40,971 bases of DNA. It comes from a virus. The notes beneath the pieces are model-generated. The model was not told the DNA's origin, did not search any database, and saw only the letters and a program-made list of their open reading frames with translations. Within the stretch, counting starts at the first letter, position 1, and every line of letters begins with the position of its first letter. Below are positions 1 through 40,971 of this stretch, in pieces. The position numbers and the translations under genes are program-made. Where the stretch lies: IMG/VR virus record IMGVR_UViG_3300034272_002360, positions 1 to 40,971 of that record; one strand, written 5' to 3'.

Positions 1-315
1 GTTCAGGCGTCCGTGCGATTTCACGCATGGCTTCTTGAAACTCAATCTCTTCCGCATACTTAGGCGTTCCGTCGGGGTGGTTCTTGCCTGTTAGGGGCTT
101 GAATGAATCCGCTACGGCTTGGAGTTCGGGCTTGGCTTCAAGCACGGCTTTAAGTTTGGCTGGTGTGAGGTCTCCGCCAATGGCTTTGTATCCCTGCATC
201 AAATGCTTGATGTGCTGATAGCCTAGCTCTTGAGCCTTGCCGTCGAGTCGTGCCTGTGGGGAGCCTGCACCGCTTTGTGATGTCGCTGTGCCTCCCTTTT
301 CAAGAGGGATAGGCT
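1..315. repeat. Terminal overlap copy A (pairs with 40500-40815)
   Basis: Base 1 aligns with 40500 and the match runs to about 315 with roughly 14 scattered substitutions (about 95% identity). It codes for the same protein segment in both copies. The divergence rules out an exact packaging repeat and points to two alleles of one locus. Confidence 0.85.
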
Positions 316-3300
316 CTTTGGGCTTGGTGGAAGGTGAAAGCATCTCATCATAAATCGCTCGCATCTTGGTGTTGAGCTGTAAGTCGATGTCGCTTCCTGT
401 GATGCCCTTGTAAATATCAAGTAGCCAAGTCTTGAAGTTATCAAAGACACCTTGAAGGCTTTTGTTTGGAGCTTTGCCTTCTGATAGGTATTTCTCAAAT
501 CCTCGTGCAAATCGTTCGCTTGTGTCGGTCTGCCAGTCTTTATGTCCTGCCCAATCAAGGATCGCTGTGCGTTCTGAATCGGTCAAGACGCCTTCATAAA
601 CGTGTGCGATTTCATGCAGTGGCGTTGACACGTCGGGGTCTGTTAGGGCGTGGATAACGCTCTTTCCATTCTCAAGGGTTTCCATGGCTCCTTTTTGGGA
701 CTGGTAGCGAATATCAGACACATCCTTTGTGAAAAAGCCTTTACTATTCTTTATTAGTCTTTCAGGGCTAAATATTTCACTCCCTGCAGCAGCAGACTCT
801 AAAAAGCGTGGGTCGGCATCAATCTCAATAACAACTGCGTCTTTGCCGAACTTTCTTGTTGCAACATCTAAAGGACTATCTCCAAAGTTGGTACCTTTTT
901 TATTTATGGAGAAATATGACCCCTCTTTAAACCCTTGTTTTTCGATCAGGCTAGCGTTAGTCTTTGATGTGCCGTGATATAAAGTTATAGTTCCGTTTTT
1001 GTTTAATGTTGCCCCTGTAAGCTTAGATAATTCTTTTCCTGCTTTAATTCTTTCCTGTGTGTTTCTAATCTGTATTTGCTCCAATGGTTCGATATTAGTT
1101 TTTTTTACAAGCTGTTGAGCGTACCAGTTCCCATTGGCTTTGATTTGATTTCCGTAAACCTCTTCTACTTTTCCGACGTTTGTAATGTCCCCAATCTTTA
1201 AATTTTTCCCATCTTGAAACATAGCCCCTTCCCCTACGTCGGTTGCGTTGCTTTTCTTAAATCCAATACTATCATAAGCATCTTTTACAGACACCCCTTT
1301 ACGCTCGGCGATCTTCTGAATGATTAAATCACTCACGACGGCTTGGGCTTTTGCCTGCTCATCATTCAAGCCAAAATACTCTTTGCCTACCTTGGTTAAA
1401 TCGTCCACATTTCTAGCGGTTACGCTCGGGTTCGGATCGTTAACTCGTGCCTCGGCTTCCTGTAGCTTTGCCCCTAGTGGCTCGTAAAAGCTGGCTTCAT
1501 CAACTAGGGCTTTGCTTGTGCTGTCGCTATAAAGCTCGTCTGCCACTCGGGCAATGTCTTCAGGCGTTTGGGCTTGGTTCAAGTCACGCTCAAGCCTTGC
1601 TCTCAACTGCTCCTGCTTGCCCTTGTTTAAAGGGGTAAAGCCTTCGACAAGCACTTGGGCTTCTTCAAGCTTAGGGGTGATGATTTCCTGCGTGTATTCG
1701 GGATAGATGCTGTTATTTAGCACGTCTTGATAACGCTGTTCGATTTCCGCTAGGTGTTGGGGTGTGTGTGCTTTGTCTAGGTCGTTTAAAAGCTCTTGCG
1801 TCTTGGCTTCTTGAATGGCGAAGTCTTTGCCTGTGGCATAGTCCATTTCTGCCCCTTGGTTGTCCGATAGCTTCTGTTGAAACGCTTGGAAGGCTTGGCT
1901 TGCCGTGCCTTGCCCTTCGGAATACTGGGGGTCTAGGTTGTCGTCGTTCATCAAGACAAGCTCGTTCAAGGTGTCGAAATTCTTGTCTTTTGCCATACGT
2001 CTAGCGATACTGCTTGAAATGTTGATGCCGTGTTCTTTGCCTAGTCGATTGGTGACGGTGGCGAATGGATCTTGCCCTTTAAAGATAATGTTCTTCCCTG
2101 CCACCTTCACACGATAATTTTCACCTGCTCGTGAATCCACGCCTTTAGCGGACGCTTTGAGCTTGTCGACTTTGTAGCCTAGTGATTTAAGGGTATCCAC
2201 GGCGTAAGACTGCCCCACGTTAGACGACGGTGCGAGTTGATCGCCTAGCACGTCTTCAATGTCTTTAATCGTCACCTTTTCAAAGTCGCCCTTTAGAATC
2301 TTGGGCTTAACTGGTGTTCCTATAGGCTCAAGGGTATTCACCTTTTCACGGCGTTGAAGCTCTTCTATAAAGAAGGGGTCGGGAGCGTCGTCTTCATTGG
2401 TGATTTTACCGCCATAGTAGACGGTTTCGCCTGTGTTGGGGTCGATGCGTGTTTCCCCTACTTGTGCCGTGTTGGGGTCGAAGGAGTCTTGCGTCTGCAC
2501 GTCTTGCGTGGGCTTGCCCTGCTTTAAGGCTTTGGCTTGGTTGTCCATTTGGTCTAGGGCTTTAGCGTAGTCTCGTGCCAAGGGGTCGTTATTCTTGGCA
2601 AGGGTGTTCATTTGCTTTGAGAGGCTACTGCGAATAAGCTTCGCCTCGTTGTGGCTTCCCTGTGCTTTGAGTGCGACGGCTTCCTGAATCTTGGCTTGTA
2701 AATCGGTTTGAATCTGTGCTGTGCGGTCTTGATTGAAGCCTTGTACATCAAAGGGAGCGTCTTCTTGATAAGGGAATACGTCGGTTAAATCCGTGCGGAC
2801 GTTGGGCGTGCCGTCCTGTGGCAAGACACCCACTTGTGACGCATCGATACCTTGTAAGGCTTCTTGAGCTTGGGCTTGTGCCTCGGCTTTCATGGCTCGC
2901 TTTTGAAAGAACTTGTTGATGATGCCCCCTGCCAAGTGTCCGCCTGCACCGAACGCTCCTTGTTGCAAGACTTCCGCACCGTCGATTTCACCCTTTTGCA
3001 TCTGTTGCCCTAGGGCGTTGGCTCCTGCGTTTAAGGTTGCATCTGCCAAGGCTCCTGTGGCAAGCTTGGTAATCGGCTTGGCTCCCATTCCCACAACTGG
3101 GACGGCGTTAATACCGCCTTCTACAATGGCACGTCCATAATCGCCTGCGTCGAGTTGGGCGAAGGTTTTGCCTTCGTTTTGCCGTTCTCGTAAACTTTGA
3201 CCGAATCCGCCTGCCACTGCCCCTAGGGTTCCACCGATTGTAGCCCCCACGGCGGTTCCTACGACTGGCACCACGGAGCCAATCCCTGCTCCGATTAACG

Positions 3301-3649
3301 CACCTGTCCCCACGTTTGCGAAACCACCTGCTAAGGCTCCTGTGAAATTACCTAAGTCGCTTTTGCCTTCTTGCGTATCAACGATACCGCCTGTGGCTTG
3401 CTCGGCAAACTTATTGCCTGCTGATTGAAAGAACTCACCTACGGCTTGATTGAAAAGGTTGGGCGGTTCGATGCTGTTTTGCTTGTAGTAGCTTAGACGT
3501 GCTTCTTGATGCTGTGCCTCTGACATCTTCTTCCAGTCAGGATGTTTGGCATAGCTTTTATCAAAGGTAATGTCGGCGACTTTGAGCTTTTGTTCAGGGG
3601 TAAGCTTCGCCCAATCGGGGTGTGATTGATAATCTGACAATGTAGGCAT
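1..3649 (-). CDS. Giant polyvalent virion protein, long allele (partial at window edge)
   Basis: The frame is open from an ATG at 3649 to the left edge, about 1216 codons, and continues in frame into the right end of the window if the genome is circular. The N-terminus repeats an HPDW motif (HPDWAKLTPEQ, HPDWKKMSEAQ). Residues about 100-140 form a Gly/Ala-rich hydrophobic stretch suited to membrane insertion. Residues about 891-960 look like an ADP-ribosyltransferase fold (YHGTS with H892, YFS with Y912, SEIF with E958). HEIAH at 1012-1016 with E1045 in SERFA suggests a gluzincin metallopeptidase. This organisation fits the phage 'polyvalent' proteins, thought to be injected with the DNA as effectors. 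It is last but one in the minus-strand virion operon. Catalytic activity is inferred; the open frame and motifs are seen. Confidence 0.8.
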   Translation of the reverse strand, partial: MPTLSDYQSHPDWAKLTPEQKLKVADITFDKSYAKHPDWKKMSEAQHQEARLSYYKQNSIEPPNLFNQAVGEFFQSAGNKFAEQATGGIVDTQEGKSDLGNFTGALAGGFANVGTGALIGAGIGSVVPVVGTAVGATIGGTLGAVAGGFGQSLRERQNEGKTFAQLDAGDYGRAIVEGGINAVPVVGMGAKPITKLATGALADATLNAGANALGQQMQKGEIDGAEVLQQGAFGAGGHLAGGIINKFFQKRAMKAEAQAQAQEALQGIDASQVGVLPQDGTPNVRTDLTDVFPYQEDAPFDVQGFNQDRTAQIQTDLQAKIQEAVALKAQGSHNEAKLIRSSLSKQMNTLAKNNDPLARDYAKALDQMDNQAKALKQGKPTQDVQTQDSFDPNTAQVGETRIDPNTGETVYYGGKITNEDDAPDPFFIEELQRREKVNTLEPIGTPVKPKILKGDFEKVTIKDIEDVLGDQLAPSSNVGQSYAVDTLKSLGYKVDKLKASAKGVDSRAGENYRVKVAGKNIIFKGQDPFATVTNRLGKEHGINISSSIARRMAKDKNFDTLNELVLMNDDNLDPQYSEGQGTASQAFQAFQQKLSDNQGAEMDYATGKDFAIQEAKTQELLNDLDKAHTPQHLAEIEQRYQDVLNNSIYPEYTQEIITPKLEEAQVLVEGFTPLNKGKQEQLRARLERDLNQAQTPEDIARVADELYSDSTSKALVDEASFYEPLGAKLQEAEARVNDPNPSVTARNVDDLTKVGKEYFGLNDEQAKAQAVVSDLIIQKIAERKGVSVKDAYDSIGFKKSNATDVGEGAMFQDGKNLKIGDITNVGKVEEVYGNQIKANGNWYAQQLVKKTNIEPLEQIQIRNTQERIKAGKELSKLTGATLNKNGTITLYHGTSKTNASLIEKQGFKEGSYFSINKKGTNFGDSPLDVATRKFGKDAVVIEIDADPRFLESAAAGSEIFSPERLIKNSKGFFTKDVSDIRYQSQKGAMETLENGKSVIHALTDPDVSTPLHEIAHVYEGVLTDSERTAILDWAGHKDWQTDTSERFARGFEKYLSEGKAPNKSLQGVFDNFKTWLLDIYKGITGSDIDLQLNTKMRAIYDEMLSPSTKPKEPIPLEKGGTATSQSGAGSPQARLDGKAQELGYQHIKHLMQGYKAIGGDLTPAKLKAVLEAKPELQAVADSFKPLTGKNHPDGTPKYAEEIEFQEAMREIARTPE
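316..1429 (-). other. Effector cassette (ART-like plus zincin) absent from the other allele
   Basis: This block (residues about 741-1111) is flanked by sequence that also occurs at the right end of the window. There, only about 50 bp of unrelated linker (40816-40866) takes its place. The cassette encodes a helical lead region, the YHGTS ADP-ribosyltransferase-like domain and the HEIAH metallopeptidase domain. Its boundaries coincide with low-complexity linkers (DPNPSVTARN upstream; STKPKEPIPLEKGG downstream), so gain or loss preserves the reading frame. Confidence 0.75.
1430..1534. repeat. Terminal overlap copy A, second block (identical to 40867-40971)
   Basis: These 105 bases are identical to the last 105 bases of the window and lie in the same reading frame. 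Together with the 1-315 block they show that the right end of the window re-enters the left end after skipping the effector cassette. Confidence 0.9.
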
Positions 3650-14334: not shown

Positions 14335-17196
14335 TTATATATGAACTTTTACATGGACGATAGGAGCAGGAATATCGTTTGAGCCTGCCCCTTCGCTTGT
14401 AATGGATACAAAGAATCCAGCGGTCGTTGGGTCAACAAGTGTAGATCCACGTTGTCCGATGTGAGGGAAGCCTAGCCAAGCATATTGACCCATACCTACA
14501 TCGATTATGTAGTTTGCATCAGGGGGGAGGATTGAAAAAGGTACAAAGAAAACCCCTCTATTGGCTGGGTCGCAAGAGACAAACGAAGCAAACCCTTTCA
14601 CCTTGCGAGTGGCTCTTCTGTTGAGGGTGACGTTGTTTGTCGTGATTGTACCTGTGCCAGCGGATGAGCCGATTGTAAACGTGTTGGCGTCAACTACGGT
14701 TATTTGATGCCAGCCGTTCGTGGCTCCACCAGTAAAGGTGGCATGTACCCAATCGCCTGTTTTTTGACCATGTGCCGTAACCGCAACCGTGGTAACGGAG
14801 CCTGCTCGTGTGTAGGTGCCTGCCGCATTCGCCGTTGTACCTAAGTTGATATTTGTTCTTGCAAAAGATTCGTCTGACCATGTTCCTTTTTTAAAGTCCC
14901 ATGCCGTGAAATACGCTTCAATCAAATTGCTGGACGAATCCGTCACCGCTAAAATATCCACCTGTTGACTATTGAACGCCACGGTCTGCGAGGGGTACGG
15001 CGTGGCGAACGTGGGCTGATAAGGTAGAATCACGGAGCCGTCAAATACTTGATTGCCCCATAGGTAATAAACAGAGTTATTGACTCGGGTCGTGGATGCA
15101 TCCGCCGAAGCACTCGAAGTAAGCGTGTTAGAAGGTGATGAGGCGAACGTGCCAGTCAATGCCAGCAAATAGGAGCCGTCGGGTAACGCTTCTACGGTGG
15201 CAGAAGGACTGGATGCGGTTCCTGTGTTGTTGACCGTGCCTAATGCCCCTGTGTCTAAGTTGAGCCAAGCCTGTACTCGGTTGGTCGATTGCTCAATCGC
15301 CATACGAATCCACGTTAAGCCACTGCCCTTTTTAATCCGTGCCGTGCGTGTGACGGTCGTCGTTGCCGTTGTAAAGGTTTTGGCGACTTGTGCCGTGCCA
15401 GCGGTGCCTTCGGCGATTTTGTCGTATTGAAAACCGCCTAAGGGATCTCTCACGATCGGGTCGTTGGGTGCAACGGTGGCATCCGTCAATGTCCAATTCT
15501 CTAAAGACTCTGAATAGGCGAGTAAGTTCTGCACGGTGAAGTTGTGAGACGTGACGTTTTGAGCCGTGTCTAACACATAACCGCCGTCACATAAGCTAGG
15601 GTGTGTCGTCATGTAGCCGTAATAAGTGGTGCTTGGTGCAAGGCTTGTGCCTGTCTTTAAACCATTAAATCCCACACGGTCGAGGCTTACGGTTTTGTTG
15701 CCTTTGACGAATAGGTCGTTTACACCGTTGGCACTCTTGGCATAAGCGTTTCCATTCAAGGTGAACGTGCGAGCCGTGGCATAGGTGGGTCTAGGCAATT
15801 GAATACCTGAAAAGGACGGCTTGGTTTCAGTCCTTAGTAAGACGGTTGAAATATCGTCTTTAACAAAAGTACCGACGACGTTTTGAAGGACTGTCGAGCC
15901 GTACGCATTCACCACGCCGCTTGATTCTGCTTTCAAGCCGTAAATGCCGTTTGCTGAATAATTGCCGTACTGGGCGTTTAACACGCCGTCTTGCGTGGCG
16001 ACACCGCCATATTGACCGTTGCCAGTGCTGACGACGCTTGAGCCTTTAAGGTTGGCTCCTTCTGTATAGATCCCTGCAAGACGGTTGCCCGTTGTGGTTA
16101 ATCCACTTATGGTGCCTGCGGATGACCCTTTGGCATAAAAACCGTGTTCGCCAAAACCTTGAATGTTCACCTTGGCGTCGGTCTGCCCTGTGGTGCCTAG
16201 TGTAAGGTTTGCGGTGTCATGTGAATAGATGCCATATGTGGCACTTGTGCCTGTGGCGTTGGCGATATTATAATCCCCTACAAGTGAAATCTGATAAAAC
16301 GCCTTTAGTGGCGAGTTGATGTAAAACAGAAAACCCGAACTGCCTGTAAACGTAAGTGTGCTGGTGTTGATTGAAAGCGTCGCATTTGTCAAGGTGAACG
16401 TCGGGAAAGCCCCACCCATAAACGTGTGCTTAATCGTGATACGACTATTGGCGGTATCGACGTTGGTAATGAGCCATGCCCCTTCAAGCACACCGAAATC
16501 GCCTGTGCCTGTAACTGGGGTAAGGCGTGCAAGTTGCCCTACCTCTAGCCCTGTCGTGGTGGATACGTTTAAAATGATACTATAGTTGCCTGCACTTCCG
16601 CTTGTGGCTTGCCATGTGACACCCGTTAAGGCAATGGGCGTACTTCCTGTAATGCCGATATTGGAGGGGTAGAAGTTGGCAAGGGGGATCATGCTCGACA
16701 AGGCGACGTTACCCACTGGCAAGGTGATGTTAATAGTGCCGATTGGGAGCAAGTTTGCAATGCCTGCTAAAAGCGTGGGGACTTGTGCGAGCGTGGGGGA
16801 TAGGTTGTAGGTGCCGTTTGGCACAAGGATAATCTTGCCAGCGTTGGCGTTTAAGGCGTTCACAAAAGCCGTGGCGTCTGTGCCGTAGGTGTTGACGTCA
16901 ATAAAGCTGGTGACTTCGCCGAAGGTGTACGTGGTTGAGCCGACAATGCCTTTAAAGTTGTTTGAGGAGGCATCGTACCAAAAAGAGCCAGCGGTGGAAG
17001 TGGGGGAGCTAGATGCGACGTTAACCCCTTTTTGAAACTGCCAAGCGGATTGAATAGTGTCGTTAATGACTCGGCTTGCCTTGGTGTTACTCGTGCTAAT
17101 AAGTTGGTCAAGCTCTGCGTTGACTTGCCCTGATAGGATTGTTTTTGTCGCTTGAAAATCAAGGGCGTGTAGTCTGACGAGATCATCCGTTGCCAT
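14335..17196 (-). CDS. Tailspike with parallel beta-helix and carbohydrate-binding-like domain
   Basis: The protein has 953 residues. An N-terminal virion-binding segment is followed by FIDVNTYGTDATAFVNALNA, the typical entry of pectate-lyase-like spikes. Residues about 300-440 are short Gly/Asn/Ala-rich rungs (GIYSHDTANL, GFYAKGSSAG, GIYTEGANLKG, GLKAESSGV), a right-handed beta-helix. Around residue 560 NLLAYSESLENWTL opens a jelly-roll domain typical of phage fibres. A small domain near 800-850 (SVTTVAVTAHGQKTGDWV) follows. It should bind or degrade a surface glycan; catalytic residues cannot be picked by eye. Its ribosome site lies within a hairpin. Confidence 0.83.
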   Translation of the reverse strand: MATDDLVRLHALDFQATKTILSGQVNAELDQLISTSNTKASRVINDTIQSAWQFQKGVNVASSSPTSTAGSFWYDASSNNFKGIVGSTTYTFGEVTSFIDVNTYGTDATAFVNALNANAGKIILVPNGTYNLSPTLAQVPTLLAGIANLLPIGTINITLPVGNVALSSMIPLANFYPSNIGITGSTPIALTGVTWQATSGSAGNYSIILNVSTTTGLEVGQLARLTPVTGTGDFGVLEGAWLITNVDTANSRITIKHTFMGGAFPTFTLTNATLSINTSTLTFTGSSGFLFYINSPLKAFYQISLVGDYNIANATGTSATYGIYSHDTANLTLGTTGQTDAKVNIQGFGEHGFYAKGSSAGTISGLTTTGNRLAGIYTEGANLKGSSVVSTGNGQYGGVATQDGVLNAQYGNYSANGIYGLKAESSGVVNAYGSTVLQNVVGTFVKDDISTVLLRTETKPSFSGIQLPRPTYATARTFTLNGNAYAKSANGVNDLFVKGNKTVSLDRVGFNGLKTGTSLAPSTTYYGYMTTHPSLCDGGYVLDTAQNVTSHNFTVQNLLAYSESLENWTLTDATVAPNDPIVRDPLGGFQYDKIAEGTAGTAQVAKTFTTATTTVTRTARIKKGSGLTWIRMAIEQSTNRVQAWLNLDTGALGTVNNTGTASSPSATVEALPDGSYLLALTGTFASSPSNTLTSSASADASTTRVNNSVYYLWGNQVFDGSVILPYQPTFATPYPSQTVAFNSQQVDILAVTDSSSNLIEAYFTAWDFKKGTWSDESFARTNINLGTTANAAGTYTRAGSVTTVAVTAHGQKTGDWVHATFTGGATNGWHQITVVDANTFTIGSSAGTGTITTNNVTLNRRATRKVKGFASFVSCDPANRGVFFVPFSILPPDANYIIDVGMGQYAWLGFPHIGQRGSTLVDPTTAGFFVSITSEGAGSNDIPAPIVHVKVHI

Positions 17197-17227
17197 AAAA
17201 GCATCCTTTATTTACTGGGATGCTTTT
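17197..17227 (-). promoter_or_regulatory. Hairpin overlapping the tailspike ribosome-binding site
   Basis: Arms AAAAGCATCC and GGATGCTTTT (10 bp, perfect, 11-base loop) lie immediately before the tailspike ATG on the minus strand. The Shine-Dalgarno AAAGGAT spans the loop and the 3' arm, so folding would hide it and limit tailspike translation. A terminator reading on the plus strand is possible but has no upstream plus gene to serve. Confidence 0.55.
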
Positions 17228-26017: not shown

Positions 26018-26044
26018 AAAAAGCGGATGCGAACACCCGCTTTT
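26018..26044. terminator. Hairpin between recT and the initiator gene
   Basis: Arms AAAAGCGG and CCGCTTTT surround a 10-base loop, with T-rich 3' arms in both directions. On the minus strand it ends just before the GGGAGG ribosome site of the initiator gene, so it may attenuate transcription or shape translation start. Confidence 0.5.
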
Positions 26045-26063: not shown

Positions 26064-26969
26064 TTAAGCGTCTGCTTCAACATAAAAATCGAGTTCGGGT
26101 TGGCTAGGCTGTGGGCTGTCGTAGTAGACTTCCCCACTCTCCACATCCAAGTGATACGGAAGGTTTTCATGCTGTGCGTTGTCGATTTCTTGAGCCTTAC
26201 GCAAGGTGTCAGGAATCACGCTCAAGGGCAGTTGTTTAACAATGCGTCGGATGACGGTTTTCCGTGCCATTTCAGCATAATGTTTCTGCCAAGGGGAATC
26301 GGCACCCCCTGCACTTTTAGAGCTTTTCTTGACGTGTTCAATGTCTTCTTTGCTCATGTATTCAACCACTGGGTCGACATCGGGATTCTTGAACTTAGCG
26401 ACGGCGTAAGCCCCCACAAAAGCCCCTTTGTCACCACTTAGCAAGGGCGAGTGTTTAAGCACGTTTTCGATGCCTTGCGAATACTCAAAGCGTCCCTGCT
26501 TGATCTCTTCTTCATAAACGGCGTGGGCGTTGATAGATGCCACCTCACCGCTATTCATTACAAGCTTTCGTAAGCCTTTGTAGCCGATAATGACTTGAGC
26601 GGTTGTGCCATAAGGCAAGATATAAAGCTCCCCCATAGCACTGTAAGGTTCAAGCCCTAATGCTCCTGCTTGATAAACGGCTTGCATGAGCGATGTAGAG
26701 TCGCATTTTAGCAATGCTGGAGTTTGTTTTAATTGAAGCACGGTAATTTCTTTTAACCGTTCAATCGTCATGTGTTTAGGCATGATTTTTTTCAGGGAGT
26801 CTGCTTGACTTTCAATCATTTGACCAAACAAATTGGCTTTGATGATAGGGTGATTGGCTTCTTTGAACTGAACTTTTAAGTTTGGTTCCTCTGCTTTTAC
26901 GATCGCCTGTTGTACAGGCTCTTGCTTCTTCCCTTGTGCCAATAATTCGGCGGATGTGGGTAATGTCAT
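26064..26969 (-). CDS. recT: RecT-family single-strand annealing protein
   Basis: The 301-residue protein carries RecT hallmarks: LLKCDSTSLMQAVYQAGALGLEP (split motif), AQVIIGYKGLRKLVMNSGEV, HAVYEEE, FVGAYAVAKF and MARKTVIRRIVKQLPLS. It anneals complementary single strands during recombination. It follows the exonuclease gene by 12 bases, forming a RecE/RecT-type pair. AAAGG precedes ATG 26969. The C-terminus is acidic (ELDFYVEADA), where RecT-type proteins often interact with SSB-like partners. Confidence 0.93.
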   Translation of the reverse strand: MTLPTSAELLAQGKKQEPVQQAIVKAEEPNLKVQFKEANHPIIKANLFGQMIESQADSLKKIMPKHMTIERLKEITVLQLKQTPALLKCDSTSLMQAVYQAGALGLEPYSAMGELYILPYGTTAQVIIGYKGLRKLVMNSGEVASINAHAVYEEEIKQGRFEYSQGIENVLKHSPLLSGDKGAFVGAYAVAKFKNPDVDPVVEYMSKEDIEHVKKSSKSAGGADSPWQKHYAEMARKTVIRRIVKQLPLSVIPDTLRKAQEIDNAQHENLPYHLDVESGEVYYDSPQPSQPELDFYVEADA

Positions 26970-26981
26970 AATTCAACCTTT

Positions 26982-27776
26982 CTATAAGTTCCACGGATTT
27001 AACTCTAAGACGTTAATACTAGGCGAGTACGCCTCAAAAATGCCCGTCTCTAAACATTTCTGATATTTTTCTATCGCTAAATTAAGCTTAAGCTCACCAG
27101 TTAGACGCATCGCTGGACTCATTTTGTTGAGGGTGATCGCATAGGGAGGGTCTTTTTCAATCACTACCCAAAGGTAATCGTCGCAAGGCTCGCCAAAGGT
27201 CGCCTCGTGAATCCTCATCGCAAGACAAGCCTGTATGTGATACCCATAATTGCCTACGGACTTAGTGAAGGCTTCAGGACTAGCGTCTGTTGTTGTTTTC
27301 AAGTCAAACATCCGCCATGTGCTTTCCTGTAGCCAATCAGGACGTGCCTTTAATTTTACGCTGTCAATTTCAGCAAAAAGCGAAACCTCGGGTTCACCAC
27401 TGCCGAAAATCATGTCGTAAAAATAGAAGTTCTTAATCGCTTCTGCACACGCTAGGGCGTTTTCATAATCGGGGGTTTTGATAACAGTAATGCCCCTCGC
27501 CTCAAAATCCGCCTTCATTTCTTTGGCTTCTTTTGTGCGAAAATCGCCGTCAAACACGCCGTAACGAGATTCAAAGGTTTTAGGCTCAAGAATCAGTGTG
27601 TGAATCAGTGTGCCTATTTCAAAACACTTTTTCTTGGTCTTTTCCGCCTTCTTTTCAGCCATCGCATGAGCTGGGCTTTTCGCTTGAAGCGTCCGTAAAA
27701 ACGTCGAACTCACATACTCACAATCGGGCGAATGGTAGTCTTCAATCGGTAAATCTCGAACAATAGGCGGTCTCAT
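26982..27776 (-). CDS. RecE-like PD-(D/E)XK exonuclease
   Basis: The 264-residue protein begins RDLPIEDYHSPDCEYVSSTFLRTL, the typical 'YHxx...vSsS.L..l..SPAH' opening of exonuclease VIII-like / DUF3799 nucleases. The motif continues with IGTLIHTLILEP. Active-site candidates are E130 (GEPEVSLF), D147 (KARPDWL) and D158-x-K160 (FDLKTT), then YHIQACL. It would resect double-strand ends to supply single strands for RecT. ATGA overlap with the previous gene and GGAGG support the start. Confidence 0.85.
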   Translation of the reverse strand: MRPPIVRDLPIEDYHSPDCEYVSSTFLRTLQAKSPAHAMAEKKAEKTKKKCFEIGTLIHTLILEPKTFESRYGVFDGDFRTKEAKEMKADFEARGITVIKTPDYENALACAEAIKNFYFYDMIFGSGEPEVSLFAEIDSVKLKARPDWLQESTWRMFDLKTTTDASPEAFTKSVGNYGYHIQACLAMRIHEATFGEPCDDYLWVVIEKDPPYAITLNKMSPAMRLTGELKLNLAIEKYQKCLETGIFEAYSPSINVLELNPWNL

Positions 27777-28819: not shown

Positions 28820-28849
28820 AAAATAAAGGGGAGGGGGTCTATCCTCCCC
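28820..28849 (-). terminator. Rho-independent terminator after lysis cassette B
   Basis: On the minus strand, arms GGGGAGG and CCTCCCC are followed by TTTATTTT. It separates the lysis cassette from the XRE repressor and the recombination genes. Confidence 0.75.
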
Positions 28850-29674: not shown

Positions 29675-30124
29675 TTAAGCTCCTTTCAGCTCAATTCCAA
29701 TTCTGTAAACACGTTCAGCCCTTGCAAGCCAACCGTCGCAATACGTCTTGCATTGTTTCCTTTGCGTATATTGCGTTTTTCGTGCGTTACGGTACATTCT
29801 AGGGGTTGTGTTACCCTTCTTTAGAAGGCTAGACGCTCCTGTTACCCCTGCATTCACGGCGTGGTCAAACACTTGTAAAGCAAGGGCTGGGTCCTCTATG
29901 CGATCCGCACCGCTTGCCTTCCAAAACCATTTACGGTAAATGGCAAGCCGTTCCGCTTGCGTCAACGCCGTAACAGGCTTGTTTTTATAGCCTTTGTTTC
30001 TTACAAGCCCTTGATAAAAAGCGGTTGATATTCCCTTGAAGGTTTTTCCGCCTGCATCGTTGGGGTCGTCTGAATACCCGCCTTCTTGGTTCAGCACATG
30101 ACGCATGGCGACTTCAAAGGTCAA
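29675..30124 (-). CDS. GH108 endolysin (N-acetylmuramidase)
   Basis: The 149-residue protein is a stand-alone GH108 domain. It has catalytic EGGYSDDPNDAGGKTFKGIS with E14, then WFWKASGADRI and FDHAVNAGVTGA motifs, and the basic end YCDGWLARAERVY. It should cleave the glycan backbone of peptidoglycan. TTG 30124 is the annotated start but its ribosome site is weak; ATG 30109 inside the protein is an alternative. Neighbouring small membrane genes make this lysis cassette B. A paralogous domain sits in the ejection protein at 3660-5495. Confidence 0.87.
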   Translation of the reverse strand: MTFEVAMRHVLNQEGGYSDDPNDAGGKTFKGISTAFYQGLVRNKGYKNKPVTALTQAERLAIYRKWFWKASGADRIEDPALALQVFDHAVNAGVTGASSLLKKGNTTPRMYRNARKTQYTQRKQCKTYCDGWLARAERVYRIGIELKGA

Positions 30125-30538: not shown

Positions 30539-31138
30539 TTACTTCTCTAGTGAGAGGTATCCGACCGCCACCTCATAGAGGCAGTCTTCCAAGTGGGCTT
30601 CAGGGTTCTTAATGCCTCTGGCGTAACTGTCGAAATGCGTCGCCACTTGCTCCGCCAATTCGCCACAAAAGCGAACGTAGCCCTTGCTGTATGCCTTACG
30701 GTTCATTAGTGGCAATTCATCTAGGATTAGCTCTCGACGATGCACCATGTAAGCGTGGACGGCTTCTAGGCTGTCGTTAATTTCCATTTCACGGTCGAAT
30801 ACGAAGCTGGCGAAATTGTAGCCTTCTTGCTCGTAATTGGAAGCCGTTCGGGGAAAGTGGGGCTGGCTTGTAAAGCCAAAATCGGGGGACGTCACAGCTT
30901 GGTGAATAGCACCCATAATCGTCGCTAGGCGATGCTGAATGAATTGGAGTCTTCCTTGTAACATGTCGGGGTGATCCTCAATAATTAGGCGACGTTGTAT
31001 TTTGTCGGCGTTGTTTTTTAACACTCGAATGGCAGTGCCTTCCTCGCATCCAGTGGCAAGCATGGACTCATAATCTAGCTTGGACTGCATGAAGCCGTAT
31101 TCCTGCCACGTTTCAAATCCATTAGGGGGGTTAAGCAT
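30539..31138 (-). CDS. Hypothetical early protein, 199 residues
   Basis: The start is ATG 31138 (MLNPPNGFETWQEYGFMQSKL), preferred because GGAGGG lies 7 bases upstream; an earlier in-frame start has no site. The protein is helical with no recognised motif. A central segment (QRRLIIEDHPDMLQGRLQFIQ) and the EINDSLEAVHAYMVHRRELI stretch look like a packed helical bundle. It overlaps the preceding small gene by 8 bases. Confidence 0.62.
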   Translation of the reverse strand: MLNPPNGFETWQEYGFMQSKLDYESMLATGCEEGTAIRVLKNNADKIQRRLIIEDHPDMLQGRLQFIQHRLATIMGAIHQAVTSPDFGFTSQPHFPRTASNYEQEGYNFASFVFDREMEINDSLEAVHAYMVHRRELILDELPLMNRKAYSKGYVRFCGELAEQVATHFDSYARGIKNPEAHLEDCLYEVAVGYLSLEK

Positions 31139-31349
31139 AAGTATTCCCTCCAAACTCACGGTCAATATGAGCCAAGGCTTCACGCAGTACTTCTTTCGTG
31201 TCGCTGGCTCGCTCATCACGGATTGATACGTTCACGCTCACGATAGCGTCTTCTCCAGCCTTGCCTTTGTTCTTGATGTTCTGCTCAAGGCGTGGGTTAA
31301 ACACTGGGGGGACTAGGGGGTTATAAATAAAGGGAAGTATTGATGACAT
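31131..31349 (-). CDS. First gene of the early minus operon, 72 residues
   Basis: The protein MSSILPFIYNPLVPPVFNPRL... has a Pro-rich N-terminus and a helical C-terminus (DTKEVLREALAHIDREFGG). AAAGGAA precedes ATG 31349. It lies immediately downstream of the five-terminator array, where an antitermination or regulatory product would be expected, but no such motif can be recognised. Confidence 0.58.
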   Translation of the reverse strand: MSSILPFIYNPLVPPVFNPRLEQNIKNKGKAGEDAIVSVNVSIRDERASDTKEVLREALAHIDREFGGNTYA

Positions 31350-31365
31350 AGGGGGTTCCTTTCAA

Positions 31366-31592
31366 AGAAAAGCAGGGGCGGTATGAACCCCTGCGGTGTT
31401 ATACATTAATGAAAAAGAGTAGCCTTCTACTCGCCTTAAGGCATTCAAGCACTAAGGCGAATAGAAAAAGGGACGCCGTCGCCCCTTGATATTGTTCGTT
31501 GGAGAAAATCTGAAAAAGAAAAGGCGGTTAAGGTCTCCGCCTAGATCATTGTGATAAAAAAGGAAAGCGATACTTTCGCATCGCTTTCCTTT
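31366..31592 (-). terminator. Array of five tandem minus-strand terminators
   Basis: Reading the minus strand: T1 31561-31590 (arms AGGAAAGCGAT, ATCGCTTTCCT, then T-run); T2 31522-31542 (AGGCGG, CCGCCT, then TTTCTTTTTC); T3 31468-31487 (AAGGGGCG, CGTCCCTT, T-run; its G.U pair forms only in minus RNA); T4 31417-31432 (GAGTAG, CTACTC, TTTTTC), beside a second stem (CGCCTTA, TAAGGCG); T5 31372-31394 (GCAGGGG, CCCCTGC, TTTTCTTT). None has a convincing T-run on the plus side. They lie between attP and the early minus operon. Confidence 0.8.
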
Positions 31593-31610
31593 GATATGAC
31601 TAAAAAATTA

Positions 31611-31657
31611 AATGGCTACGAACCATGAGGTCGGGGGTTCGAATCCCTCGCTGCGCA
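31611..31657 (+). other. attP: attP core: 3' half of a tRNA-Arg(ACG) gene
   Basis: The stretch carries the anticodon loop CTACGAA (anticodon ACG), the variable loop, the T arm with GGTTCGAATCC, the acceptor 3' strand GCTGCGC and discriminator A. No D arm or 5' acceptor is present, so it is not a working tRNA. A tRNA 3' half 140 bases before an integrase is the usual phage attachment core; integration would restore the host tRNA gene on the integrase side. Confidence 0.85.
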
Positions 31658-31684
31658 TATTCCCTTCTTGATTCTACAGGTTCT

Positions 31685-31712: not shown

Positions 31713-31796
31713 GAAAAGTAACGAATGCGGTAACGCATGGCATCTTTTCAGCTTTCCACGTTTTGATTTATGCGTGAATAGATGAAAGGATACATT

Positions 31797-32819
31797 ATGC
31801 TAACTCTCAAGGAAGCCTCGCTTGTGCTTGGCGTTTCCGTGCCTGCTTTAAAGAAGCAGATTCTAACAGGACGGCGTCATGCCGTCAAAACCAAGGGGTA
31901 TAACGACCGTGACGTATGGATGCTGGACATTCCGAATCAGTCTATCCATAACTTAATGGATGACTGGCTCGACGATCTACGTACTGGCAAGGGATACCCC
32001 AAGCCGTACGCTAAAAGCACTGTGCGAAACTACCACTCATTCATTCAAATGATGTGGAACCATGCCAAAGTGGAGTCGTCACTTCAAGCGTTTAATCTTG
32101 TTACCTTGAAGCTGGCAATAGACGCCATAGGTGAATTGCCAGCCTGTCACTACGCTTTGAAACGCAACATTATCGATGCGTTCAAGTGCTTCATGAAGTG
32201 GTTGATTGCTTGTGAAGTCAAGCCTCAATCAAGCTTAGACGGCGTTCAGGACTTACGCCCTAAGCGGTTCACCCCTGCTAAACGAAACAAGCTCAAGCAA
32301 GACGACGTTTCACAATTGCTTCATGCGTTAGAAAAGCATTGCACCCTCCCTTATTTTAAAGAGAGGATGCACCTACTTCTAAAACTCATTCTCACCAGTG
32401 GACTACGCATTAGCGAAGCACTGGGGATCCGCCTTGAACATATTAACTATGAACAAGGCACAATATCGGTACTAGGCAAAGGCAACAAGCCACGCATCAC
32501 GGTACTGTCGGACGATATGAAAGCGATTGTTTTGAAGTGGACTCAGGCGTTCCACGTCACAGGTCAAACACTGTTTAACAATCTCACCTATCAAGGGGCT
32601 AGAATTGCCATAAGACGGTTAAGAAAGCTAGTGCCGTTTCCTCTTAACTTTCACGACTTACGACGCACCTGTGCCACGCAGTGGGTACAAATGAATGTAC
32701 CGTTGACGATGGTTTCTAAGTTACTGGGGCATACGTCTTTAAAGACGACCCAGCTTTACGTCGAAGCCGACGCACTCGATGCCGTGCGGTTTGTGAGAGC
32801 CTTACCTAGTTATTTCTGA
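31797..32819 (+). CDS. int: Tyrosine-family integrase with N-terminal HTH-like domain
   Basis: The 340-residue protein uses ATG 31797, chosen because GAAAGGA lies 6 bases upstream. Residues 1-45 (LTLKEASLVLGVSVPALKKQI) form an HTH_17-like domain in place of the usual arm-binding domain. Residues about 50-145 are a SAM-like core-binding domain. The catalytic set is present: R204 (SGLRISEAL), K228 (LGKGNK), H286 and R289 (HDLRR), H312 (LLGHTS) and Y321 (TTQLYVEAD). It should integrate the phage into the tRNA-Arg gene whose 3' half lies just upstream. Confidence 0.93.
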   Translation: MLTLKEASLVLGVSVPALKKQILTGRRHAVKTKGYNDRDVWMLDIPNQSIHNLMDDWLDDLRTGKGYPKPYAKSTVRNYHSFIQMMWNHAKVESSLQAFNLVTLKLAIDAIGELPACHYALKRNIIDAFKCFMKWLIACEVKPQSSLDGVQDLRPKRFTPAKRNKLKQDDVSQLLHALEKHCTLPYFKERMHLLLKLILTSGLRISEALGIRLEHINYEQGTISVLGKGNKPRITVLSDDMKAIVLKWTQAFHVTGQTLFNNLTYQGARIAIRRLRKLVPFPLNFHDLRRTCATQWVQMNVPLTMVSKLLGHTSLKTTQLYVEADALDAVRFVRALPSYF

Positions 32820-32944
32820 TTTAGCTTGTTCTCAAGCCCTTTTAAATGCAATATCTCTTTCTTAAGCCCCCCATTCAAACGCCGAATGCCAAGGCTTTAG
32901 ATACACTTTTTGCCAAAATCAAACAAAAGTTTTTTATGAAATTG

Positions 32945-34636: not shown

Positions 34637-34746
34637 TTGACATACTCCCCTCAAGACTGCTAGGATGAACTCGAATAAGTAAGTTAAATCCTTTCATTAC
34701 TCCTTTCTTTAACAAAGCCCCTCGACTCATCATCGGGGGGCTTTTG
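34637..34746 (+). ncRNA. Promoter-terminator unit: short RNA or attenuated leader
   Basis: TTGACA (34637-34642) and TAGGAT (34661-34666) are 18 bases apart. About 50 bases on, arms AAAGCCCC and GGGGCTTT followed by TTTGTG form a terminator near 34716-34745. A transcript of roughly 75 bases without an ORF would result, ahead of the terminase operon. TATAAT at 34801-34806 with a poor -35 may be a separate promoter for the next gene; GTAAC-N5-GTTAC lies upstream. Confidence 0.5.
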
Positions 34747-34846
34747 TGTTATGTAACAAATCGTTACGTTTGAAAAGTAGACGCTATAAAAAAGCTATCG
34801 TATAATCTTCTTGGGATCGCTTTAAGAGAGAGGGAAATAATAGAAT

Positions 34847-39657: not shown

Positions 39658-40971
39658 TTATTCTAAATTTGCGGTGGAGAGCTTGAACAGGTCGCACATC
39701 CCTTTAAGTGCCTTTAGTGTCGGCTCTTTCTCAAGCGTTTTCTTAATGGCGATGATGTCGTTTGCTGTGAGCTTCTTCTTGTTGCCTGCCTTGTTTAGTA
39801 TAGCATCCGTCAATGTTTTGACGCTCTCGGGGGCGTTGAGTTTCATCAACTCGTGCTGAATCTTCTTGATGTCCTTGATGTTCGCCCCGTACTTAATTTG
39901 GAGCTGTTGCTCCTTGCTTAGCTTGGACTTAAACGTTCTCGCCGTGTCTAGCACGTCTCGGGCTTGGCTTGTGAGGATGCCTGCCTCTCGTGGCTTTCGG
40001 TTCAGCACGTCTTCCAATAAGAAGGGGATTGCGTCACGGTACACGTTGGGGTAGGTTCCCACGAACTCGGGGGCGGTGGACTCAACGGGATCACTCAGGA
40101 ATCGGCTCGCTTCCTTGCCTTCCTTTACGAGGCGTGGGTCAAGGTCGATGTAATACTTCGCAAAGTGTCCGTCGGCGTTGTAGGCGTTTACGGCGATTTG
40201 TCCGTTGTGGAGTGCGAACGATTGAGGGGTGATGTTCTGCCGTTTCTTGCCGTCTATGGCGTTGGTGGCTCCCCCTTTGCCACTCATTCCGCCTTCGGTG
40301 GCAATGTCTGCATCTGCTGTTTTCTTTTGCTGAATCAAGCGGTCTAGGAGTTCAACACGCTTTTTAACGCTAGGGCTTGCAAGATCCCACGCTGTAGTTT
40401 TCTTGAGGTCTTGTCCGCTTAAGTAGCCTTCGGGGTTCTTCTCCTGTAATTGCTTCACGCTCTGCTGTCTGCCTGTACCGCTTTCATAATCAAGGTATCG
40501 TTCAGGCGTCCGTGCGATTTCACGCATGGCTTCTTGAAACTCAATCTCTTCCGCATACTTAGGCGTTCCGTCGGGGTGGTTCTTGCCTGTTAGGGGCTTG
40601 AATGAATCCGCTACGGCTTGGAGTTCAGGCTTGGCTTCAAGCACGGTTTTAAGCTTGGCTGGGGTCAAGTCTCCGCCAATCGCTTTGTATCCCTGCATCA
40701 AATGTTTGATGTGCTGATAGCCTAGCTCTTGAGCCTTGCCGTCTAGCCGTGCCTGTGGGGAGCCTGCACCGCTTGATGATGTCGCCGTGCCTCCTTTTTC
40801 AAGGGGGAGGGGTTCAGTTGGTTCCGTTTTGGAACGAACTTGTGCATTTTCTGCACTGGTTGCCCTGTTCGGATCGTTAACTCGTGCCTCGGCTTCCTGT
40901 AGCTTTGCCCCTAGTGGCTCGTAAAAGCTGGCTTCATCAACTAGGGCTTTGCTTGTGCTGTCGCTATAAAG
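39658..40971 (-). CDS. Giant polyvalent protein, short allele / C-terminal part (partial)
   Basis: The frame is open from the right edge to TAA at 39658. Residues encoded at 40867-40971 and 40500-40815 repeat the left-end gene, but the ART-like and zincin cassette is replaced by a short linker (RATSAENAQVRSKTEPTEP). Below 40500 lies the unique C-terminus of the gene, common to both alleles: helical, with SKLSKEQQLQIKYGANIKDI and ending LFKLSTANLE. In a circular genome the left ORF joins here in frame, giving 1496 residues (long) or 1142 (short). Confidence 0.8.
   Translation of the reverse strand, partial: LYSDSTSKALVDEASFYEPLGAKLQEAEARVNDPNRATSAENAQVRSKTEPTEPLPLEKGGTATSSSGAGSPQARLDGKAQELGYQHIKHLMQGYKAIGGDLTPAKLKTVLEAKPELQAVADSFKPLTGKNHPDGTPKYAEEIEFQEAMREIARTPERYLDYESGTGRQQSVKQLQEKNPEGYLSGQDLKKTTAWDLASPSVKKRVELLDRLIQQKKTADADIATEGGMSGKGGATNAIDGKKRQNITPQSFALHNGQIAVNAYNADGHFAKYYIDLDPRLVKEGKEASRFLSDPVESTAPEFVGTYPNVYRDAIPFLLEDVLNRKPREAGILTSQARDVLDTARTFKSKLSKEQQLQIKYGANIKDIKKIQHELMKLNAPESVKTLTDAILNKAGNKKKLTANDIIAIKKTLEKEPTLKALKGMCDLFKLSTANLE
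40500..40815. repeat. Terminal overlap copy B (pairs with 1-315)
   Basis: The block matches 1-315 at about 95% in the same frame; differences are scattered and mostly at third codon positions. It marks the point where the two ends of a circular map overlap. Confidence 0.85.
40816..40866 (-). other. Linker replacing the effector cassette in the short allele
   Basis: These 51 bases encode about 17 polar residues (around ATSAENAQVRSKTEPTEP) and stand in place of 1114 bases of the left copy. The frame is kept on both sides. Confidence 0.75.
40867..40971. repeat. Terminal overlap copy B, second block (identical to 1430-1534)
   Basis: The 105 bases are identical to 1430-1534. The identity here versus 95% in the other block shows the overlap is mosaic. 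Confidence 0.9.

Follow-up and report, generated by a model that had tools for sequence, protein, structure and literature searches.

The window analyzed here, a viral DNA of 40,971 nucleotides (IMG/VR record IMGVR_UViG_3300034272_002360), carries a real and unusual cluster of terminator-like hairpins at 31366–31592 on its minus strand, beside the phage attachment site. We tentatively propose, at slightly less than an even chance, that this array acts as a directional gate on transcription into a leftward gene block of ∼10 kb, and that the block's own transcript must pass it. The hairpins, their U-tracts, their direction, their position on the attP side, and the conservation of a core are seen in the sequence, as are the lack of a recognizable promoter inside or after the array and the presence of further terminators inside the block; the proposal supposes, in addition, that the hairpins terminate in vivo, that read-through from the host poses a real threat, and that there is an antitermination step.

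Five terminator-like hairpins in 230 nucleotides

All five hairpins listed in the initial annotation, each with a T-run behind it on the minus strand, were recovered within ∼230 nt. Read in the order of leftward RNA, hairpin 1 (31560–31591; −21.6 kcal/mol) has a 14-bp stem and a GAAA tetraloop followed by TTTTATCAC, and hairpin 2 (31522–31542; −8.7 kcal/mol), which is found in the window phage only, is formed by GGCGG..CCGCC followed by TTTCTTTTT. Hairpin 3, or T4 (31467–31487; −11.3 kcal/mol), has a GC-rich stem followed by TTCTATTCG; hairpin 4, or B (31417–31432; −5.8 kcal/mol), is formed by GAGTAG..CTACTC and has its T-run in the window phage only; and hairpin 5, or T1 (31372–31394; −14.1 kcal/mol), is formed by GCAGGGG..CCCCTGC followed by TTTTCTTTG. 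A U-tract fused to a GAAAGGAA ribosome site comes next (31356–31371, minus strand; identical in four genomes), and the leftward block opens with a gene whose ATG stands 22 nt past the last stem, that of T1. The arrangement is that of intrinsic terminators, a GC-rich hairpin directly followed by a U-tract, with four of the five stems at or below −8.7 kcal/mol and the fifth at −5.8 kcal/mol, and the hairpins are presumed from these features to work as terminators in vivo. As for their direction, the earlier claim that all of them are one-way stood in that every hairpin has a minus-side T-run and fell short in that hairpin 1 also has a short T-run on its plus side (TTTGATATG). The G.U pair said to form in the hairpin 3 stem in minus-strand RNA only could be read directly from the sequence.

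The number of sites was far above chance, since dinucleotide shuffles of the same 250 nt (n = 1,000) gave a mean of 0.11 terminator-like sites and a maximum of 2. In the same scan, the largest number of codirectional sites per 250 nt was 5 in the window, 3 each in lambda and HK022, and at most 2 in P22, P2, phi11, 186, N15, three relatives of the window phage, and 200 kb of a Vampirovibrionales metagenome-assembled genome (MAG) from the probable host, a reference set that is small (seven phages besides the relatives and the host DNA) but in which no more than 3 sites were ever found, bearing out the view that a stack of five is unusual. When the terminator scan was checked on Vampirovibrionales DNA, 12 sites were located after the stop codons of 162 long open reading frames (ORFs), compared with ∼3 expected from their density, a modest enrichment.

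A sixth hairpin, absent from the initial list, was also detected. Hairpin A (∼31424–31468, minus strand) lies between T4 and T1, is nearly invariant in sequence, and has no T-run of its own. In folding, its stem recruits both the hairpin 3 U-tract and the 5′ arm of hairpin 4; related sequences fold into the same long stem, and forcing hairpin 4 in the window sequence costs 5.9 kcal/mol. Since hairpin A would be made before hairpin 4 during transcription, hairpin 4, which is weak and competes with hairpin A in the folding model, is probably inactive or conditional.

Two readings of single elements were rejected: the palindromes differ in sequence among themselves, which does not fit repressor operators, and the short frame (MNALRRVE..) in the interval between hairpin A and T1 is broken by indels across relatives, which does not fit a coding sequence.

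Conservation and turnover among relatives

Four IMG/VR contigs were identified as relatives: G001 and G002 (via the exonuclease), G004 (via hairpin A), and L065 (via the GAAA hairpin). Another contig, L064, matched the GAAA-hairpin pattern and was discarded, as it had no similarity to the proteins of the window. The stems and U-tracts of T4 and T1 are kept in G001, G002, and G004. Three of the five U-tract terminators are private to the window phage, namely hairpin 2 and those depending on the T-runs of hairpins 1 and 4, and the new T-runs all point in one direction; for hairpin 1, the inner stem and loop are kept in all four relatives, and the long lower stem and T-run occur only in the window phage. 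The number of hairpins, supposed earlier to be conserved, is thus not so, with two U-tract terminators in G001, G002, and G004 and none in L065, and the stack of five is specific to the window genome. On the other hand, identity between lineages is 91 to 100% for hairpin A, the T1 stems, and the T1 tail and 74 to 100% for the T4 hairpin, versus 22 to 53% for the spacer between B and T1. Hence a core of two terminators plus hairpin A (T4-A-T1) looks to be under selection, as judged from these alignments. A single two-sided base-pair change was seen among relatives.

Across the greater part of its length, L065 shares 91 to 94% identity with G001; it lacks the T4-A-T1 cassette, in whose place there are two small ORFs and no terminator-like site, so that small ORFs run from hairpin 1 to gene 1 and the leftward block is kept without any terminator in front. 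The core is, therefore, a replaceable cassette and not an essential part. In G001 and G004, a 73-amino-acid (aa) ORF that has a good ribosome site occupies the interval from hairpin 1 to T4 and is directly followed by T4, and G004 has an extra gene after T1. No integrase of the window type is present on the G001 and G004 contigs, and terminator number does not follow the integrase gene (int), as G002 has int yet only two terminators.

Beyond these contigs, a covariance model of the T4-A-T1 core gave one match in 289 genomes of the host class, by inspection an unrelated single terminator. No match was obtained by blastn of the window against public phages, by IMG/VR scans with the integrase and second-gene proteins, or with a RecE-like query in 18 genomes of the order.

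Several other features of these genomes were recorded. Where the window phage has int and attP, a long, imperfect hairpin (∼75 nt) is present instead in G001, G004, and L065 (15690–15760 in L015 and 4055–4140 in L018). G001 (L015 and L016) and L065 have early genes and parts of the leader in common with the window phage, but their late gene module is unrelated to its own, which makes them a clean case of module exchange. Short tandem repeats consisting of TGTAGCAAAC units and TGCTAGC words, close to the G001 regulatory region (L015, 16160–16250), are possibly operators or an origin. As for the window itself, its ends (1–3649 and 39658–40971) both lie inside one leftward gene, indicating that the genome is near-complete; a fully closed circular contig was rejected, because joining the ends shifts the reading frame by one base and no terminal repeat is present.

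The leftward gene block

As the initial annotation had it, lysis and recombination genes lie behind the array, in a leftward lysis-recombination-replication block of ∼10 kb. Its first gene (31131–31349, minus strand) encodes a 72-aa protein that is conserved in relatives and has no assigned function, followed on the same strand by genes for a GH108 lysozyme (endolysin; 29675–30124), a RecE-like exonuclease (26982–27776), and a RecT-like annealing protein (26064–26969); a DnaC-like loader is also encoded in the block. Further terminator-like hairpins lie inside it on the minus strand, at matching places in relatives: a conserved one with TTTATTTTGAAAGG directly before a Cro/CI-type gene (28828–28849) and one after recT (26023–26040) that is present in G002 too.

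The hairpins at 28828–28849 and 31372–31394 are different and have one layout, a GC-rich hairpin, a U-tract, a GAAAGG ribosome site, and a start codon, and both modules are almost invariant across relatives. From its sequence, this layout is possibly a standard terminator-plus-ribosome-site module of the phage group. Elsewhere in the window, a perfect 10-bp hairpin (17196–17226; conserved in G002) ends at the start codon (ATG) of the first leftward structural gene; the ribosome site lies in its loop region, and the hairpin may control translation.

The attachment site and the host-facing end

The attP core that had been placed beside the array (31612–31658, plus strand) was confirmed: over 47 nt it matches the 3′ portion of a Vampirovibrionales tRNA-Arg(ACG) without a mismatch, and a search of 84,980 species genomes with 44 nt of it gave no second exact match. 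This identity ties the phage to the Vampirovibrionales, which are probably its hosts. The tyrosine integrase gene (31782–32819, plus strand) reads away from the array. A distant relative from the same order, found in integrated form, has its tRNA, its integrase, and a related terminase gene arranged as expected for attL; its duplicated core sits on another contig, and no terminator stack was found at its attR. An integrated copy of the window phage itself was not found, and it is by geometry that the array is assigned to the host-facing attR end of the prophage, in agreement with the earlier claim that this end faces host DNA. A terminator would then lie between the element end and the first block gene, facing host DNA, as in a Tn916-type insulator. 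In the candidate host MAG, attB is flanked by a gene that reads away from the attR (array) end, and host read-through into that end is possible.

G002 has a different tRNA-like attP core, a 26-nt stretch of which was found once in the same MAG; the phage group, therefore, appears to switch its integration site while keeping the array.

Transcription probably enters upstream of the array

In a σ70-type scan, in which plausible rightward promoters of the window phage score 11 to 16 and for which the promoter rules of Vampirovibrionales may differ, no site above background was found in 31350–31620, i.e., the array and the 22 nt before gene 1, the best score inside the array being 5.1. Leftward candidates were located only upstream, on the integrase side of attP. 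The strongest of them (31860–31888, minus strand; TTGACG-17-TGtTAGAAT) scores 15.0, lies inside the integrase gene, and is confined to the window phage, not being conserved in G002. A weaker promoter-like site (32850–32878, minus strand; TTGAAT-17-GATATT) scores 9.5, and its hexamers and spacing are identical in four genomes, with or without int. In G001, G004, and L065, the ORFs between hairpin 1 and T4 or gene 1 argue that transcription enters from upstream and crosses the array. Taken together, these sequence features point to entry of block transcription upstream of the array.

The weaker site and a small hairpin are contained in a 120-nt segment immediately past the stop codon of int (32818–32935) that is ∼83% identical in all relatives, including those lacking int. 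Farther along, a strong rightward σ70-like promoter (TTGACA-18-TAGGAT) has a terminator-like hairpin (34714–34744) no more than ∼80 nt downstream, and a second promoter-like site (34778–34806) then precedes the terminase operon; the first promoter and hairpin (34637–34752) recur in G002 and could give a small RNA.

A proposed transcription gate and alternative explanations

According to the gate proposal, leftward polymerases would arrive from outside, either from host DNA across attR in the lysogen or as spurious or integrase-antisense transcription on the circle, and successive intrinsic terminators would halt them. The block's own transcript would begin upstream of the gate and would pass it, as well as the internal terminators, by leakage or antitermination. 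In favor of the gate, the terminator cluster is beyond chance and beyond the reference phages, the direction of the terminators fits protection of the block behind the array, and terminators inside a conjugation operon are held to be a good sign of antitermination (PMC8955417). Against it, L065 has the block with no front terminators, the attB-side gene reads away from attR, the extra terminators are not linked to the presence of int, and neither an antitermination protein nor a known RNA was recognized in an Rfam scan of the window and a comparison of 39 window ORFs with PHROGs. The insulator and the antitermination leader, put forward in the initial annotation as alternatives, are both possible and mutually compatible.

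If the terminators only blocked outside transcripts, and the block were served by its own promoter lying unrecognized inside the array, for example just before T1, antitermination would be unnecessary, and the last hairpin would double as a 5′ mRNA hairpin before the ribosome site. Such an arrangement would fit the TATAAC (window) or TTTAAC (G001 and G004) standing 3 to 4 nt before the last stem and the repetition of the hairpin, U-tract, ribosome site, and ATG module before the Cro/CI-type gene; however, there is no −35 element at a usable distance, the best in-array promoter score is within background, and the TATAAC-like site is not conserved in G002. Since promoters of the host may follow other rules, we retain this plain insulator as a possible, though unlikely, explanation. 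It is also conceivable, albeit with rather low probability, that a hotspot beside attP gains and loses small genes carrying terminators of their own, leaving an orphan stack with no joint function. The 73-aa gene directly before T4 in G001 and G004, the other small genes replacing the T4-T1 cassette in L065, the extra gene after T1 in G004, and the private status of three of the five terminators all suit such turnover, which accounts poorly for the strong conservation of T4, hairpin A, and T1 next to unconserved spacers and for the shared direction of the new T-runs.

Finally, T4 and hairpin A could form an RNA antiterminator, acting in the manner of HK022 put, with the neighboring hairpins as the terminators to be overcome. 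The two stem-loops abut, span ∼63 nt, are conserved in sequence beyond the stems, and are located in a leader ahead of internal terminators, yet T4 has a good U-tract of its own, only the single two-sided pair change was seen, and the element has no Rfam match, is absent from L065, and was not found in the 289 related genomes, making this improbable. We would regard as a similarly long shot the idea that T4 and hairpin A are a new RNA antiterminator of Vampirovibrionales phages that crosses the attR gate and the internal terminators and so couples block expression to excision or lytic entry.

Comparison with known systems

By analogy, Tn916 is the closest worked example for the gate. In that element, the terminator placed at its end overlaps with the first operon gene, provides insulation in the integrated state, and is bypassed after excision (PMC11658703). 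The array resembles Tn916 T1/canT in that a terminator lies at the element end, where the first operon gene begins, and faces transcription from the host, with the strongest upstream promoter on the other side of the attachment site (PMC11658703). It differs in belonging to a phage of another phylum, in having up to five terminators and no recognized antiterminator, and in being known from sequence alone. On the far side of attP, where a Tn916-type insulator would have a processive antiterminator, lies the conserved leader block at 32818–32935. The pLS20 conAn system likewise features a long operon with several internal intrinsic terminators, but this is a plasmid conjugation operon, and no ConAn-like part was recognized here (PMC8955417).

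As with lambda tR′ and P22 t-late, a terminator is present in the leader between promoter and lysis genes, although here there are several terminators instead of one, and the block adds recombination and replication genes. Neither a Q-like protein nor a qut site was found; among the 39 window ORFs compared with PHROGs, many had no match at all, so that a distant type could escape. A lambda nut/boxB site was rejected, as the GAAA hairpin is single copy per genome and has no CGCTCTT boxA near it, and no N family was present among the proteins scanned. HK022 put RNA is likewise a leader element of roughly 70 nt composed of two stem-loops side by side (PMC9378689), but no sequence relation to it is shown, and one of the two hairpins here is itself terminator-like; the Rfam scan of the window gave no match, the presence of a put model in Rfam being unconfirmed. 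Membership in the N, Q, or put systems is, therefore, not claimed, no component resembling theirs having been recognized in the sequence. Coliphage 186 has terminators in its early region, annotated as antiterminated in lytic growth, and next to its tRNA-derived attP (record annotation), but it shows at most 2 codirectional terminator-like sites per 250 nt in the same scan.

Thus, parts of the gate are known from other systems, and a dense one-way stack at the attR end looks like an unusual variant. If there is no gate, the region shows how terminators pile up and vanish at a gene-turnover hotspot beside attP. If the gate works as proposed, an almost unstudied phage-host group has in it a phage equivalent of the Tn916 insulator; it would provide a conserved, testable RNA core and would suggest that integrated elements have repeatedly evolved terminator gating at their ends.
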